Shown piece after piece: positions 4,752-48,624 of a stretch of DNA of 64,000 nucleotides (the stretch's first letter is position 1; each line of letters starts with the position of its first letter). Source of the DNA: Pontibacter vulgaris. GTDB lineage: Bacteria; Bacteroidota; Bacteroidia; Cytophagales; Hymenobacteraceae. The notes beneath the pieces are model-generated. The model saw only the letters and a list, made by a program, of their open reading frames with translations. It was not told the DNA's origin and made no database searches. The stretch lies in NCBI RefSeq assembly GCF_022758145.1, contig NZ_JAJVDH010000002.1:1-64000 (forward strand), written 5' to 3'. The translations under genes were made by a program, and so were the position numbers.

Positions 4752-5465
4752 ATGCAGGAACCAGAGAAAACCAGTTTATACTTAGTACCAACGCCCATCG
4801 GCAACCTCGAGGACATAACCTTGCGTGCCATCCGGGTACTGAAAGAAGTGGATGTTATACTTGCCGAGGATACCCGCACCAGCGGTAAATTGCTGCAACA
4901 CCTGGGTATAGATAAGCGCATGCATAGCCACCACCTGCACAACGAACATAAAGCAACCGCTCATCTGGTTGAAAGACTGAAAGCTGGCGAAGTAATGGCG
5001 CTTGTTTCGGATGCGGGTACGCCCGGAATTTCTGACCCCGGTTTTTTGTTAGTGCGTGAGTGTGTTAAGAACGGTATTAAAGTTGAGTGCTTGCCAGGGC
5101 CTACTGCTTTTGTGCCTGCCCTCGTTAAATCTGGTTTCAGCACTGATAGGTTTACATTCGAAGGGTTTCTGCCGCTTAAGAAAGGTCGCCAGACGCGCTT
5201 ACTGAGCCTGGCAAACGAGGAGCGCACCATGATTTTTTATGAATCGCCGCACCGCCTGCTTAAGACACTTACCCAGTTTAAAGAGTATTTTGGTGGCAAC
5301 CGCATGGCATCTGTTTCACGTGAAATCTCTAAAATGTTTGAAGAAACCATCAACGGCACTTTAGATGAGCTGGTAGAAATTTTCACGACCAAACCGATTA
5401 AAGGCGAATTTGTGCTGGTTGTGGCAGGCGCGCCAAACACAAAAGCTTCTAAAGACGAAGAATAA
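4752..5465 (+). CDS. rsmI: 16S rRNA (cytidine-1402-2'-O)-methyltransferase
   Basis: A 237-residue tetrapyrrole-methylase-fold enzyme. Key motifs are LVPTPIGNLEDITLRA at the N-terminus, EDTR (39-42), SDAGTPGISDPG (86-97), the SAM-binding loop GPTAFVPALV and a central FEGFLP. These are diagnostic of RsmI, which 2'-O-methylates C1402 in the ribosomal decoding centre. It is followed after 16 bases by the DUF4105 gene, so the two may be co-transcribed. Length is slightly short of the E. coli protein, as is usual where the C-terminal extension is absent. Confidence 0.95.
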   Translation: MQEPEKTSLYLVPTPIGNLEDITLRAIRVLKEVDVILAEDTRTSGKLLQHLGIDKRMHSHHLHNEHKATAHLVERLKAGEVMALVSDAGTPGISDPGFLLVRECVKNGIKVECLPGPTAFVPALVKSGFSTDRFTFEGFLPLKKGRQTRLLSLANEERTMIFYESPHRLLKTLTQFKEYFGGNRMASVSREISKMFEETINGTLDELVEIFTTKPIKGEFVLVVAGAPNTKASKDEE

Positions 5466-20545: not shown

Positions 20546-21136
20546 TTGAGCTTCTAGTTTTATAGTTTTTCTTTTGTCATTTCGAGCGTCAGTCGTGAAA
20601 TCTTAATTGTCCTATAGTTGCAGTTTATACTTTCCTGAACCAAGCTAAACTTTCATAGTTGCTTCTAATCCTGGGAGCTTAACTTATCTATAGTTGCATA
20701 GTTAGCTTTGGGGCCCTCACGGCGGGGGTAGGGGCCCTCGATAAGGGCATCGCGCTGCTGATTTGAAGCTACCCTCGTACCTCGGGTTGCCTGACGGCAC
20801 CGCAACAAATCAAAGGCGCTCAACCCCAAGACTGATATCAGTTCGACAGTTTCCTATATTCTATACTTTGAAACGATAAGCTCCGAGAATTGTCGGTATA
20901 TTCCGTAGGGACAGGTCGCACCTGTCCGCCCGTGGACTATACCGACAAAACTATAACCGGAAGTATAGCAGTTGCAGAACTGTCCCCTTGAGGACAAGTG
21001 AGAACGAGAATTCGAAGGTAGCGAGCGTAGCTCTGAGGGGTTGGGGGTAGTTGGACCACAGCAACTATAAAACTATAGCAACACCTAAACCATCAACCAA
21101 ATCCTAAAATCTTTCCATCTTAAAAATCTTAGTCCT
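20546..21136. repeat. Intergenic region with REP-like palindromes
   Basis: This 590-bp stretch holds no gene. It contains several palindromic or REP-like pieces: GTCATTTCGAGCGTCAGTCG near 20576, repeats of the GGGGCCCT word around 20711-20738, an imperfect inverted repeat GCGCTGCTGATTTG / CAAATCAAAGGCGC around 20752-20820, and the nested hairpin listed separately at 20890-20948. Words like these recur between genes in many Bacteroidota genomes. I infer dispersed repeats, not regulatory sites. Confidence 0.6.
20890..20948. repeat. Nested palindrome with GGACAGGT stem
   Basis: An outer 11-bp inverted repeat (TTGTCGGTATA at 20890-20900 with TATACCGACAA at 20938-20948) encloses an inner perfect 8-bp hairpin (GGACAGGT, loop CGC, ACCTGTCC, 20909-20927). 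The structure resembles a mobile REP-type element or a cruciform. Confidence 0.7.
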
Positions 21137-38877: not shown

Positions 38878-41800
38878 ATGAAACAACATGATGCGCTTGA
38901 CAGATTGCTGCAGCAACTCCAGGAGTTCAAGAAAAAGTTCTACCTGAATATGTTGCTCAGGGGTAGCATTTTTGCCCTTGGCCTGCTGCTGTCTACCTAT
39001 ATCATGTATAGCATACTAGAGTATCTGTTTTATTTTCCACAGTATGTTCGTGCTTTCCTGTTATTTTCCTTTGTTGGCATTGTGCTGTATGTTTTCATCC
39101 GCTGGATCGCCTTACCCATCTCGGCTCTTGCCAATCTTAAACGCGTACTTTCCGATGAGCAGGCCGCCTTGCGCGTTGGCAGCTTCTACCCCGAAATAAA
39201 AGATAAATTACTGAATGCGATTCAGTTAAAAGATTTAGACCGCACCAATGAGCTTATTGCCGCCAGTATAGAGCAGCGCTCGGGCCAGTTGCTTACTTTT
39301 AATTTTACAGATGCTGTTAAGTTTAAAGAAAACCGGCCACTGCTAAAGTATGTAGCCCTTCCGGCCATTATTGCCCTACTTATTGCCCTCGTTTATCCGG
39401 CCATATTTGTGCAAGGCACTGAGCGGATAATCCACTATAAAAAGTTTTACGCACCAGCTGCTCCATTTAAATTTATAGTTGAAACCAATCCTTTACAGAC
39501 TTTCAGAGGGGAGGACTTTGAATTAAAAGTAGCCATAGCCGGCAAAGCCATACCCAGCGAAGTATTTATACTTTACAACGGCCGCCGGCAAAAGCTAAAC
39601 AACAACGGCCGCAACAGCTATACTTATACTTTTAAGCAACCACAAAAGTCCGTAGATTTTGAACTAGAGGGTTCGGGCTTTACATCGGATACTTATACTT
39701 TGCAACTGCTTTCGCGCCCCAACCTGAAGGACTTCCGGATGGAGGTAAACTTTCCGGCTTATTTGAAGCGGAAACCGGAAGTAGTACAGAACACTGGAAA
39801 TGCTACCATACCTGAGGGCAGCACACTGAAGTGGAGTTTTACAGCCTCCGAAACAGAAAGTATAAACCTTGCTTTTGATGAACCTTCTCAAAGTATAGCT
39901 GCCACAAAAGAGGGAGACTCTTTTAGCCTGAGTAAAAAATTCAGCGAAAGCCAGAACTATACTATAAAGCTGCGCAACCAGTACAGTACCAACAAAGAGC
40001 AGATCAGCTACCAGATCACCACCATACCAGATCGCCACCCACAGATCAGCATCGAGCAGTTTCAGGATACAGCACTATATAGTTTCCTTGTTTTAGGAGG
40101 TGATGTTTCTGATGATTATGGCCTTACACGCCTCGCACTGTTTTACCGCATCAGCAACGATAAAAATCCTAACACCAAGTATAAAAGCAGGCCATTACCT
40201 ATTAATCCGCAGCAGCAAAGCCAGACTTACTATTACCAATGGAACACTGCAGGCCTTAATATGCAGCCCGGCGACAGGCTGGAGTACTTTGTACAGGTTT
40301 GGGATAACGATGGTATACACGGCCATAAAAGCACACGCACGCGCACTTTAGAACTGAAGGTCCCATCTAAGCAGGAACTACAAAAAGAACTGGACAGCAA
40401 TTCCCAGTCTATCTCCAGCCAATTAAGCAAATCGTTAGAGAAATCGAATAAGCTGAAGCAGGACCTAGAGAAATCTGAAGAGAAGATGAAAACCAAGCGC
40501 GACCTGAACTGGCAGGACAAAAAACAGCTGGAAGACCTGGTACAAAAGAAAAAGCAACTGGAACAGGATATCTCTTCGATGAAAGAGTTGTTTGAAGAGC
40601 TGAACAAAAAGCAGAACATGCTGAGCGAGCAAGACAAACAGCTGGCTGAAAAAGCGCAGGAGCTGCAAAAACTAATGAACGACCTGCTTGACCCGGAAAC
40701 AAAGAAACTATACGAAGAGCTCGAAAAACTACTACAGGAGCAAAACCAGAACGATCCTGAACTGCAAAAACTACTTAGCAAACTGGATAACCGCGAACGC
40801 AACCTCGAAAAAGAACTGGAGCGTGCCCTCGAGCTATTCAAGCAGTTGCAATTCGATCAGAAGCTGGACAACGTAACCAAGAAACTGGATGAGCTGGCGC
40901 AGGAAGAAAAAGAACTTTCTGAAAAAACATCTGAGAAACTGGCTGATAACAAACAACTGGAACAGGAGCAGCAGGATATAAAACAGGAATTCGATGAGTT
41001 GAAGAAACAAATGGAAGAACTGAAGGACCTGAACGAAAAGTTGGAGAGCCCTGCCCAGATGGATGAGCAGCAGCAACAGCAGGACCAGCAGCAGGTAGAA
41101 GAACAAATGCAGCAAAGCCAGCAGCAACTACAAAAGCAACAAAACAAAAAAGCCAGCGAAGCGCAGCAGAAAGCAGGGGAGAAGATGAAGCAGATGGCAC
41201 AGCAAATGGAGCAGATGCAGAGCAGCATGGGCATGGCCGGCATGCAACAAAACCTTGATAACCTTCGCGACATACTTGAAAACCTTATTAAGCTTTCTTA
41301 CGACCAGGAAGCGCTAATGAAATCGTTCCGCGGCGTTAGCCAGAGCGACCCACGCTTTATTACCCTATCGCAGCAACAGCTAAACCTCCGCGATAATGCT
41401 AAAGTCGTAGAAGATAGTTTACAGGCACTCGCTAAGAAAGTGTTTCAGATCCAGTCATTTGTTACACGCGAAGTAGCAGCCATGAATCAAAGTATGGATA
41501 ACAGCATGCAGGAACTTCGTGATCGCAACGTTGGCAAAGCTACAGTACAACAACAATTGGCTATGACAAGTATGAATAACTTGGCCCTGATGCTGAACGA
41601 TGCCCTGAAGCAAATGCAACAGGCAATGCAGCAAATGCAGGGAAACATGGCCGGAAAACAGAAGGGGGCTAAGCCAAAACCCGGTGATTTTGGAAAAATA
41701 CAGCAAGAATTGAACAAAAAAATCGAAGAATTGAAAAAAGGTGGCAAAACAGGTAAGACACTTTCTGAAGAATTAGCTAAATTGGCTGCTGAGCAGGAGG

Positions 41801-42220: not shown

Positions 42221-42646
42221 ATGAATCAGGTTAAAATTCAGATTCCATCACTAATTGAGAACATCAGAGTAATAGAGAGCTTTATCGATAACTCCAAGGA
42301 TGAATTTGATTTCGAAGATGATATTTATGGCAACATTATGGTTGCTGTAACGGAATCTGTAAATAACGCCATCCGCCATGGCAACAAATTTGATAAAGAC
42401 AAAAACGTTTATCTTACACTGCAGGTAGAGCAAAACCAACTGCTTTTCGAAGTTGAAGATGAAGGCCCTGGCTTTGATTATGATAGTTTACCAGATCCTA
42501 CTGCACCTGAAAACCTGGAAAACCCTGGTGGCCGCGGTATCTTCCTGATGCGTAATCTCTGCGATGAGGTTAACTTCCTGGATAATGGAAAAAAGGTACA
42601 ACTAATCTTTAATATCGTAACAGCAACTAATGGATCATCCAATTGA
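42221..42646 (+). CDS. RsbW-like ATP-binding protein (anti-sigma kinase fold)
   Basis: A 141-residue HATPase_c protein. The N-box is E45-S-V-N48-N-A-I-R-H (VAVTESVNNAIRHGN), G1 is EDEGPGFD (79-86) and G2 is GGRGIFLM (103-110). This single-domain size and motif set is that of RsbW/SpoIIAB-like anti-sigma kinases. No sigma factor or anti-anti-sigma gene lies in the window, so the partner is unknown. It overlaps ybeY by 17 bases, which implies translational coupling. Confidence 0.92.
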   Translation: MNQVKIQIPSLIENIRVIESFIDNSKDEFDFEDDIYGNIMVAVTESVNNAIRHGNKFDKDKNVYLTLQVEQNQLLFEVEDEGPGFDYDSLPDPTAPENLENPGGRGIFLMRNLCDEVNFLDNGKKVQLIFNIVTATNGSSN

Positions 42647-43058
42647 GTTTTTTAGCGAGGATATTGATTTCACGCTACCGAACCCAGACAAAGTATCAGA
42701 TTGGATTGCATCTGTAATTGAACAACACGACAGCGAATTAATAGGGCTCACCTATATTTTCTGCTCCGACGATTACCTGCACGAGATCAACGTGGAATAT
42801 CTGGACCACGACACCCTAACAGATATCATCACCTTCAATAATGCCGATGAAGAAGGCACGATTGAAGGTGATATTTTTATAAGCGTAGACCGCGTTCGCG
42901 ATAATGCCAACACCCACGGCACCTCTTTTGAAGATGAAATGCACCGTGTACTCATACATGGCGTGCTTCACCTGTTAGGTTTTAAAGACAAAACTACCGA
43001 GCAGGAAGCACTTATGCGTAAACAAGAAGATTCTTGCTTATCTTTGCGTAATTTTTAA
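42630..43058 (+). CDS. ybeY: Endoribonuclease YbeY, 16S rRNA maturation
   Basis: A 142-residue YbeY. The metal-binding motif reads HGVLHLLGFKD, with a conserved His-x3-His and an Asp where the third zinc-binding His lies in E. coli. Close Bacteroidota homologues show the same change, so I treat it as lineage-typical. The conserved LNxxxR-like region is replaced by VEYLDHDTLTDIITF. It processes 16S rRNA 3' ends and takes part in ribosome quality control. The start overlaps the preceding gene by 17 bases. Confidence 0.92.
   Translation: MDHPIEFFSEDIDFTLPNPDKVSDWIASVIEQHDSELIGLTYIFCSDDYLHEINVEYLDHDTLTDIITFNNADEEGTIEGDIFISVDRVRDNANTHGTSFEDEMHRVLIHGVLHLLGFKDKTTEQEALMRKQEDSCLSLRNF
43039..43046 (+). 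promoter_or_regulatory. -7 element TATCTTTG inside the ybeY end
   Basis: TATCTTTG lies within the last codons of ybeY, about 80 bases before the mnmG ATG. If used, the mnmG leader would include the parS palindrome at 43090. No -33 TTG is visible. Confidence 0.4.
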
Positions 43059-43089
43059 TCAGAAAAAGGAATTACGTTTCTCTTCTTGA

Positions 43090-43105
43090 TGTTTCACGTG
43101 AAACA
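43090..43105. other. parS centromere site (ParB-binding)
   Basis: TGTTTCACGTGAAACA is a perfect copy of the canonical 16-bp parS palindrome bound by ParB/Spo0J. It extends to a 20-bp palindrome with GA/TC at the ends (43088-43107). It lies between ybeY and mnmG, 19 bases before the mnmG ATG. parS sites usually cluster near the replication origin, consistent with the candidate origin about 4.5 kb away. Confidence 0.93.
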
Positions 43106-43124
43106 TCTCTAAAATCAAAAGTAC

Positions 43125-44987
43125 ATGTTTGCTGAATACGATATAATAGTTGTTGGTGCAGGGCATGCAGGCTGTGAGGCCGCTGCTGCTGCTGCCAAAA
43201 TGGGTTCAAAGGTGCTGTTGGTAACCATGAACATGAATACTATTGCTCAAATGTCTTGTAACCCGGCCATGGGTGGTGTAGCTAAAGGGCAGATTGTTCG
43301 TGAAGTAGATGCACTCGGAGGCATGAGTGGTATCATTACCGATAAGACTATGATCCAGTTCCGGATGCTGAACAAATCTAAAGGTCCTGCTATGTGGAGC
43401 CCACGAGCCCAAAGCGACCGCATGCGATTTGCTGAGGAATGGAGACTTACGTTAGAGCAAACAGAGAACATTGACTTCTGGCAGGAGATGGTTTCAGGCA
43501 TAGAAGTAGAGAACGGAAAAGCAGTAGGAGTACGTACCAGCCTGGGGATAACTATACGCGGAAAGGCCGTTGTACTAACTAACGGCACGTTTTTGAATGG
43601 CATTATCCACATTGGAGAGAAACAATTAGGCGGAGGCCGGGCAGCTGAAAAATCTGCAAAAGGTATAACCGAACAATTGGTAGAACTTGGTTTTGAAGCA
43701 GGCCGAATGAAAACCGGAACACCTCCAAGAGTAGATGGCCGGAGCCTGGATTACAGCCGAATGGAAGAACAGTTCGGCGATGAGAATCCTTCGAAGTTTT
43801 CATACACCGAAACAGAACCGTTACAATCACAGCGAAGCTGCTATATAACTTATACAAACTCAGAAGTACACGAGATTCTAAAAACCGGCTTCGAAAAATC
43901 TCCGATGTTCCAGGGCCGTATTCAGGGATTGGGGCCACGCTATTGCCCAAGTATAGAAGATAAGATCAACCGCTTTGCTGACCGCGACCGCCACCAGATA
44001 TTTGTAGAGCCTGAAGGATGGAGCACAGTTGAAGTATACGTAAATGGTTTCTCAAGCTCGCTACCGGAAGACGTGCAATTAAAAGCGCTTCGTAAAATAG
44101 TAGGCTTTGAGAATGCTAAAATGTTCCGCCCGGGTTATGCGATCGAGTATGATTTCTTCCCGCCAACACAGTTAAATCTTACCCTGGAAACAAAACTGGT
44201 TCAGAATTTATACTTTGCTGGCCAGATAAACGGAACTACAGGATATGAAGAAGCAGCTTGCCAGGGACTGATGGCAGGTATAAATGCCCACAACAAAGTA
44301 CACGGCAAAGAACCATTCGTTCTGAAACGTTCTGAAGCATACATTGGCGTTTTAATAGATGACTTAGTAAACAAAGGTACAGAAGAGCCTTATCGTATGT
44401 TTACTTCACGCGCTGAACACCGCATACTCCTGCGCCAGGATAATGCTGATATTCGCCTAACAAAGCTGGGCCATAACTTAGGACTAGCAGATGAAAGTCG
44501 TTTGAAAGCTGTGGAAAAGAAGGTATCAGAAACAGCGGAAATCATCGCATACTTAAATAACAAGCCGATTGAACCCGGAGATATCAACAGCATGCTGGAG
44601 AGTTTAGGATCTGCTCCTATACCTGAAAAGCAACGTGCCGGCCAGCTTATAAAACGTCCAAATATCGAGATCCAACATTTAGCAGCAGCAATACCAGCCA
44701 TAGCAGAATACCTGAGCAAATTCAAAGCAGATAGTGTAGAGCAGGCCGAAATAGCTGTTAAGTATGAAAGCTACATCGAAAAAGAACATGTGATGGCTTC
44801 TAAAATGGGTGAGCTCGAAAACTACATCATCAAAGAAAGAATTGACTACCGCAACATACCTGCTTTATCTTCTGAAGCGAGAGAAAAACTCTTGAAAGTG
44901 AATCCTGAAACTATAGGACAGGCTTCGCGCATCAGTGGTGTTTCACCGGCAGATATTTCAGTGTTAATGGTATACTTAGGCAAATAA
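43125..44987 (+). CDS. mnmG: tRNA uridine-5-carboxymethylaminomethyl modification enzyme MnmG (GidA)
   Basis: A 620-residue FAD protein. The dinucleotide-binding motif [10 protein letters not shown] (11-20) and the family signatures [37 protein letters not shown] and [12 protein letters not shown] identify MnmG. With MnmE it modifies the wobble uridine of several tRNAs. mnmG is an origin-proximal gene in many bacteria. Length is standard. The methyltransferase gene starts directly after its stop, so the two are probably translated together. Confidence 0.97.
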
Positions 44988-47567: not shown

Positions 47568-47583
47568 AAATTTGAAAGTATAG

Positions 47584-47611
47584 AAGGGAGGTCAGAAAGG
47601 CCTCCTTTTAT
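47584..47611 (+). terminator. Terminator of the Ig-like lipoprotein gene
   Basis: AAGGGAGG (47584-47591) pairs with CCTCCTTT (47601-47608) around a 9-base loop, with a T-rich tail. Confidence 0.82.
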
Positions 47612-48624
47612 TATGCCATACTTCAGCCGTGGCTTGTGGAAAGTATGAAATAAAACACAGCCAAACTTAGTGCAAGCGCAATAACATTGCCACCTTTCAA
47701 CATACCATCCCAGTTAAAATTCAACACCTGGTTTGCTCTGAAACTTCTTCTAAAAAAATCAAGCTCGATGCATATAATATGCATCGTTACAAACCAAACT
47801 ACCTATCCGAACTTATAAGCTTCTCCCTTAAACTATCACCAAAGTATAATCTTAACATCGGTTTCATTTGTTTGTAGAAAGTCTTTAGGACCAGACTACA
47901 GACTTGTGAACCATTCCTGATCAGCTTGTGCGTAAAATAATTTCCTCGCGTACAATTCTGTAAAAATAAAGCTGCAGCGTTAATAACATAGCAATGTAAA
48001 CTCTGACCATAGTTACACTACCAAAGCAATACATAACGATTAAAAAATATCACTTAAGAGGTATCAGTAGAGTTTAAAATATGCGCTTCTTCTTAAAACA
48101 AAGTATAGCCAAAGTAATTAACAATAAGGGTGGGTATAACTGTGGAAAAGCGTGGAAGAAAAATGTAAAACTCTGGAACCCTAAATTACACACTACATAA
48201 AAGATGCCGTGGAACACTAAAAAAGTGGAAACAGGTGCAAAAGTGAGTATAGTAAAATGGTTTATCCACGTTTGTGTGTAGTGTTTAAAAAGAAATTCAC
48301 AAATAACGTTTAAAAGTGGAAAACACCTCTAAAAGATTGATGCATAAAAATATATCCTAAGAAAGTATGTGGAGAGAAAAGTGCACAACCCGGGAAGTGT
48401 AAACAAGTTACCAAGAGTAACAAAAGAGTATAAAACATATCAACTTGTACACACCCTTAATAATGAAAGAGAATTTAGTTTAAAGAAAAATTTAATTAAA
48501 AAATATTAAAGGTTGAAAAGTGTGGAAAGGTGGATTAAAAGGAAAAAAGGAGAGAAGTATAAAGGAGTAATCGGAAGCCAAAAAAAGAAATTCGTAAATT
48601 GAAGGACATCGAAAAATATAAAGC
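47612..48624. other. Candidate chromosomal replication origin (oriC)
   Basis: A gene-free, AT-rich gap of about 1 kb. It has several DnaA-box-like words: TTATCCACG (48262-48270) and TGTGGAAAA (48141-48149), each one mismatch from TTATCCACA/TGTGGATAA, plus TGTGGAAAG at 47635 and 48521, AGTGGAAAA at 48315 and GGTGGATTA at 48530. The A/T-only tract around 48485-48510 (TTTAATTAAAAAATATTAAA) could be an unwinding element. Inverted TACACACTACATA / GTGTGTAGTG words flank the middle. A parS site and mnmG lie about 3-4.5 kb away. Evidence is by composition and position only; dnaA is absent here. Confidence 0.6.

Follow-up and report, generated by a model that had tools for sequence, protein, structure and literature searches.

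A probable chromosomal parS site next to mnmG in Pontibacter vulgaris, and the pairing of parS with mnmG across its phylum

Why would a centromere stay by a tRNA-modification gene while the partition operon lies far off? The question is raised by a short gap in the window (the whole 64,000-nucleotide stretch that was analysed), where a perfect palindrome of the ParB-binding type stands between ybeY and mnmG. From comparisons of sequence, we judge with a probability of roughly 0.93 that this palindrome serves as the main parS of a chromosomal ParABS system acting on the origin region. A chromosomal parS is in itself an ordinary and already known type of site. The features of the gap are these:

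43090-43105, no strand: parS, a perfect 16-bp palindrome TGTTTCACGTGAAACA, identical to the 16-bp ParB-site consensus at 16 of 16 positions
43088-43107, no strand: extended 20-bp palindrome GA-parS-TC, its outer bases near-fixed in same-genus leaders
42630-43058, plus strand: ybeY, rRNA maturation RNase, upstream neighbour of parS (ORF position and family match)
43125-44987, plus strand: mnmG (gidA), downstream neighbour of parS (ORF position and family match)

A single exact palindrome, conserved in place

An earlier note on this DNA had described an exact canonical ParB site in a 66-bp gap between ybeY and mnmG, and our analysis agrees on both points: TGTTTCACGTGAAACA departs from the consensus nowhere, and the gene boundaries at 43058 and 43125 leave 66 bp that hold it. 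Within the window, two places lie within three mismatches of the 16-mer against a mean of 0.33 in shuffled sequences, but since 5 of 100 shuffles equal that count, it is by itself weak evidence. The draft genome of the same organism (4.19 Mb, 36 contigs) contains the exact 16-mer once, where about 0.001 copies would be expected by chance from simple arithmetic, and 35 of the 36 other genomes of the genus likewise contain exactly one; the exact match is therefore not a product of chance. The remaining genome of the genus, G001, has a copy with one mismatch. The gene order ybeY-parS-mnmG recurs in all 29 same-genus loci fetched (from 29 of the 35 genomes with an exact copy), and in these 29 relatives parS stands 17-22 bases before the mnmG ATG. 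Of six named loci found by pattern and compared at the protein level, the one of Pontibacter burrus has the MnmG most similar to that of the window, at 92.6% over 162 residues. Conservation extends one step beyond the 16-mer: in 30 leaders (the window and the 29 same-genus leaders, all chosen by the exact 16-mer pattern), the outer bases of GA-parS-TC are G in 28/30, A in 30/30, T in 30/30, and C in 30/30, and the columns flanking the extended palindrome are mostly variable. Elsewhere in the order, an exact copy was found in only 3 of 22 genomes, and the 3 kb fetched around one of these copies (L007) gave no match to MnmG or YbeY.

Weaker matches are less informative. The organism's own genome has five further copies at two mismatches, against none for the reversed control; two of them are no more than 90 kb from parS, and the other three are in other places. 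Genomes of the genus have 2-10 such copies each versus 0-7 in the reversed control, and because these counts are so close, most two-mismatch copies in the genus are attributable to chance. The earlier note had proposed that matches across the genome should cluster around one region. That expectation is borne out by the exact copies, which are not scattered, and by 12-base cores of the site, which lie mostly near parS in the genomes with places listed (see below), and it is left undecided by the two-mismatch copies, which are scattered, near control level, and no clean test.

Partition proteins and the position of the origin

The proteins that such a site would need are encoded in the genome, on a contig other than that of parS:

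L005 (G000:C7:262627-265908): parAB locus, with parB directly after the ParA gene

Its ParB is the only ParB_N-family match in the genome, and ParB was found in 41/41 genomes of the genus. One same-genus genome has a second ParB_N-family match, at G013:C11:83440-83649. With residues numbered by alignment to the Caulobacter protein, following the numbering in the available text of PMC7383237, all 11 aligned ParB proteins of the genus carry Q162, G170, K171, R173, N178, G201, and R204, as well as K172, Y179, and K184. Position 172 is lysine here and serine in Caulobacter, a difference that we counted against the parS reading. By analogy with characterized systems, ParB from the parAB operon would load on the palindrome as a CTP-dependent clamp, the clamps would slide over mnmG and the nearby origin, ParA would move the ParB-bound origin region, ParB would probably load SMC, and newly copied origins would then separate first. 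Binding, clamp loading, sliding, SMC loading, segregation, and any effect on mnmG are all carried over in this way and should be read as predictions.

The earlier note had also placed parS near a candidate replication origin, and sampled GC skew in two same-genus relatives assembled as one contig each, G022 (5.46 Mb) and G031 (4.34 Mb), bears this out, since the sign of the skew switches at parS in both. In G022, where parS is at 1.505 Mb, 8/8 samples between 1 and 1.49 Mb give negative values and 7/7 between 1.52 and 3.32 Mb positive ones; skew falls near zero at 3.85 Mb (-0.002) and 4.125 Mb (+0.010), and is negative in three samples from 4.4 Mb on, with the antipode of parS near 4.24 Mb; at closer range it is negative from -35 to -15 kb and positive from +15 to +35 kb of parS. 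In G031, where parS is at 3.311 Mb, ten samples from 1.2 Mb to parS are negative and ten onward round to 0.92 Mb are positive. In both genomes dnaA is well inside the positive arm, and the sign changes at parS, not at dnaA. A genome of another family, G152, is roughly consistent with a switch at mnmG: values are for the most part negative between 0.55 and 2.3 Mb, stay close to zero between 2.5 and 3.0 Mb apart from +0.055 right behind mnmG (2.76 Mb), and are positive beyond 3.3 Mb and around to 0.3 Mb. The sampled skew of G175 was too noisy to point to any origin. The window itself has its GC-skew minimum at 40,250, 2.8 kb before parS; its AT-skew minimum, at 20,750, disagrees. Because the organism's own genome is a draft, with parS, parB, and dnaA on three contigs, the placement of the origin draws on the window's skew and on the relatives, and the GC skew of the two same-genus relatives supports a position of parS close to the replication origin. 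The origin itself may lie in a neighbouring intergenic stretch:

47568-48624, no strand: candidate oriC, AT-rich (66.5% AT) and intergenic, about 4.5 kb downstream of parS, with DnaA-box-like GTGGA words (9 forward and 1 reverse)

Relative to parS, the longest ORF-free run is found between +4.4 and +7.3 kb in 18 of 20 same-genus regions (the exceptions are L249 and L256, and in L239 the run is only 235 bp), and in 17 of those 18 (not L243) GTGGA is denser there than in the remainder of the region. DnaA-box-like 9-mers also occur inside mnmG, at 43603 (about +512) and 44510 (about +1419) of the window, and keep nearly fixed places in 21/21 and 18/21 regions, respectively; these probably reflect coding constraint.

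The partition and initiator genes lie away from parS in the six same-genus genomes compared, namely G022 and G031 (one contig each) and G001, G002, G020, and G021 (two contigs each, the main one being used). As a fraction of the half-chromosome, the distance from parS is 0.73-1.00 for parB in 6/6, or 73-100% of the way towards the antipode, and 0.28-0.40 for dnaA. Among 27 genomes of the phylum assembled as one or two contigs, nine (G060, G061, G088, G109, G120, G130, G163, G181, and G189) have dnaA no more than 100 kb from mnmG, and none has its best parB match that close, the nearest being at 299 kb. Lengths were rounded for G122, G130, G163, G169, and G181, and the figures for G163 and G181 are less precise as a result. 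In G191, a second ParB match lies about 284 kb from mnmG, a distance obtained by subtraction.

The locus thus resembles the chromosomal ParABS systems of Caulobacter, Bacillus, and Pseudomonas in its 16-bp site, parS-type ParB residues, ParA, SMC, and near-origin position, and differs from them in the remoteness of parB, in a dnaA that is off the origin, and in having only one exact site. The available text of PMC10197239 reports one to ten parS sites per genome in 12 gut strains, two Bacteroidetes among them, and an origin that is not always at dnaA, both of which fit the situation here; it also reports no known condensin in those two Bacteroidetes, for which reason the presence of a full-length SMC gene in the present genome matters. 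No mention of mnmG occurs in that text. Where dnaA misleads, parS beside mnmG would give a simple marker of the origin.

Pairing of parS with mnmG and its possible meanings

Beyond the genus, a site with at most one mismatch was found in 122 of 148 genomes of the phylum, against nine places in eight genomes for the reversed control. We looked at mnmG and up to 2 kb on each side of it in one genome per genus for 80 of 83 genera, the three excluded being the window's own genus, G103, whose mnmG runs into the edge of a contig, and G173, which lacks a full mnmG match. No farther than about 400 bp from an end of mnmG, a site with at most two mismatches is present in 70/80 genera (52 upstream, 39 downstream, 21 both, and 18 downstream only), one with at most one mismatch in 52/80 (35 upstream, 29 downstream, 12 both, and 17 downstream only), and an exact one in 26/80; G095, G121, G148, G160, G059, G071, G080, G112, G166, and G194 have none at two mismatches over that distance. 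Over the full 2 kb, 73 of the 80 genera have a parS-like site and 7 have none; in the same 80 genera, the reversed pattern gave 0 and 20 shuffled palindromes gave 0 to 2. The central CACGTG is kept in 116 of 123 sites near mnmG of other genera.

A pattern scan of named genomes, selecting for parS 30-60 bp upstream of an mnmG motif, returned at least 119 stretches with an exact site in that position, and the titles of those listed point to Bacteroidetes, Chlorobi, Calditrichota, Rhodobacteraceae, and Clostridia, among other groups. Of the stretches listed, 118 have an MnmG match; of these, 33 carry both ParA and ParB on one tile, 10 have just ParA, 34 have ybeY, and 41 have none of the three, although tiles were at most 8 kb and their edges may hide some neighbouring genes. 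The 33 with both partition genes share none with the 34 that have ybeY, as the window does. The arrangement recalls the mnmG(gidA)-parA-parB origin cluster of Alphaproteobacteria and others, with parS 30-60 bp upstream of the mnmG motif (the loci having been selected for this), and differs from it in that ParA and ParB occur together in none of the listed stretches with the window's ybeY arrangement. We infer from this an ancient origin cluster in which parS and mnmG remained in place after parAB had moved out. A fuller version, in which the centromere of the phylum is tied to mnmG rather than to the partition genes or dnaA, on one or both sides across most genera, has stayed there though parAB moved away (in this genus, towards the terminus), and is accompanied by weak sites in codons of rsmI and a thiolase-like gene, seems to us speculative, with odds of perhaps one in four; the pairing could in that case be functional, ParB clamps covering mnmG and tying its expression to origin copying. 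Among the open-access literature matches listed, nothing was found on parS beside mnmG, whether in Bacteroidetes/Bacteroidota, in Chlorobi, or elsewhere, and we do not claim that the link is unpublished. In the available text on other bacteria, the parS sites of Pseudomonas aeruginosa nearest gidA lie in recF (PMC3909081), and parS-359 of Bacillus subtilis is inside parB (PMC4442127).

The proximity to mnmG could instead mean that a transcription factor uses the palindrome as its operator to control mnmG or ybeY, or that the site is dual and ParB also represses mnmG from it. A feature just upstream bears on this:

43039-43046, plus strand: TATCTTTG, a possible -7 promoter element for mnmG that lies within the 3' end of ybeY

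The earlier note had pointed to a likely -7 element at 43039, upstream of parS, and TATCTTTG does start there and fits TAnnTTTG, which we take to be the consensus of that element. If it is the -7 element of mnmG, parS would lie in the mnmG leader. All 30 leaders have a -7-like element at -49 to -53 from parS, a point in favour of the operator reading, but the element lies in ybeY codons, so coding explains part of its conservation. Repression of promoters next to parS has been linked to ParB in P. aeruginosa in the available text of PMC5521831, but the available text of PMC3909081 has the gidA promoter of that species unregulated by ParA or ParB in Escherichia coli, though its nearest parS sites are the ones in recF. 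That 18/80 genera have near-mnmG sites only downstream speaks against the site being mainly an mnmG operator, and an exact match to the ParB consensus close to the origin also counts against this reading, which we regard as improbable, in its dual form as well.

Two further readings can be set aside with near certainty. One holds that selection acts on an RNA hairpin of the mnmG leader: the extended palindrome would give an 8-bp stem in the predicted RNA, but the leader folds no better than shuffled sequences (z -0.64), the CACGTG centre, part of which would make up the loop, is kept in most of the sites counted above, and sites also occur 3' of mnmG, so we rejected it. The other is a binding site for nucleoid occlusion of the Noc type, suggested by the ParB, whose best E-value in NCBIfam is with the Noc model, at 243.5 bits. 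This score is below the Noc cut-off of 315, however, and the cut-off of the NCBIfam ParB-domain model is exceeded; moreover, the protein has R173 and G201, which according to the available text of PMC7383237 are conserved in all ParB orthologues and are Q and R in Noc. The Noc-type pair being absent and only one ParB_N-family protein matching in the genome, we rejected this reading too, and return to the palindrome as a parS.

Weaker parS-like sites within codons

Apart from the principal parS, similar sequences recur inside two genes:

5312-5327, no strand: secondary parS-like site TGTTTCACGTGAAATC (core 5314-5325) in rsmI, over codons for VSRE (pattern match and relatives)
4752-5465, plus strand: rsmI, 16S rRNA (cytidine1402-2'-O)-methyltransferase, containing the secondary site (family match)
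L003 (G000:C2:125971-128986), contig position 127471: a third parS-like site 84 kb away from parS, within a thiolase-like gene

The 12-base core TTTCACGTGAAA has 114 copies in the 41 genomes of the genus (1-4 each), compared with 13 for the reversed control, and 40/41 genomes have at least two. In the 28 genomes with places listed, the cores are mostly within about 110 kb of parS: 25/28 have one copy on the contig of parS at a distance of 34-48 kb, and 12/28 have another that is 97-114 kb away. In G008, G032, and G034, core copies are farther off or on another contig. The first core is in rsmI at the VSRE codons in 12/12 genomes fetched, and the second is at ISRE codons of the other gene, presumably thiolase-like to judge from its motif, in 8/8 genomes fetched. 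Never-changing four-residue stretches with equally unchanging DNA number 1 of 73 and 1 of 51 at the two places, each of them the core, an invariance that follows by construction, as the genomes at both sites were picked for holding the core. In the organism's own genome, the rsmI core lies 38 kb from parS, and 11 of the 12 bases are found at the thiolase-like gene.
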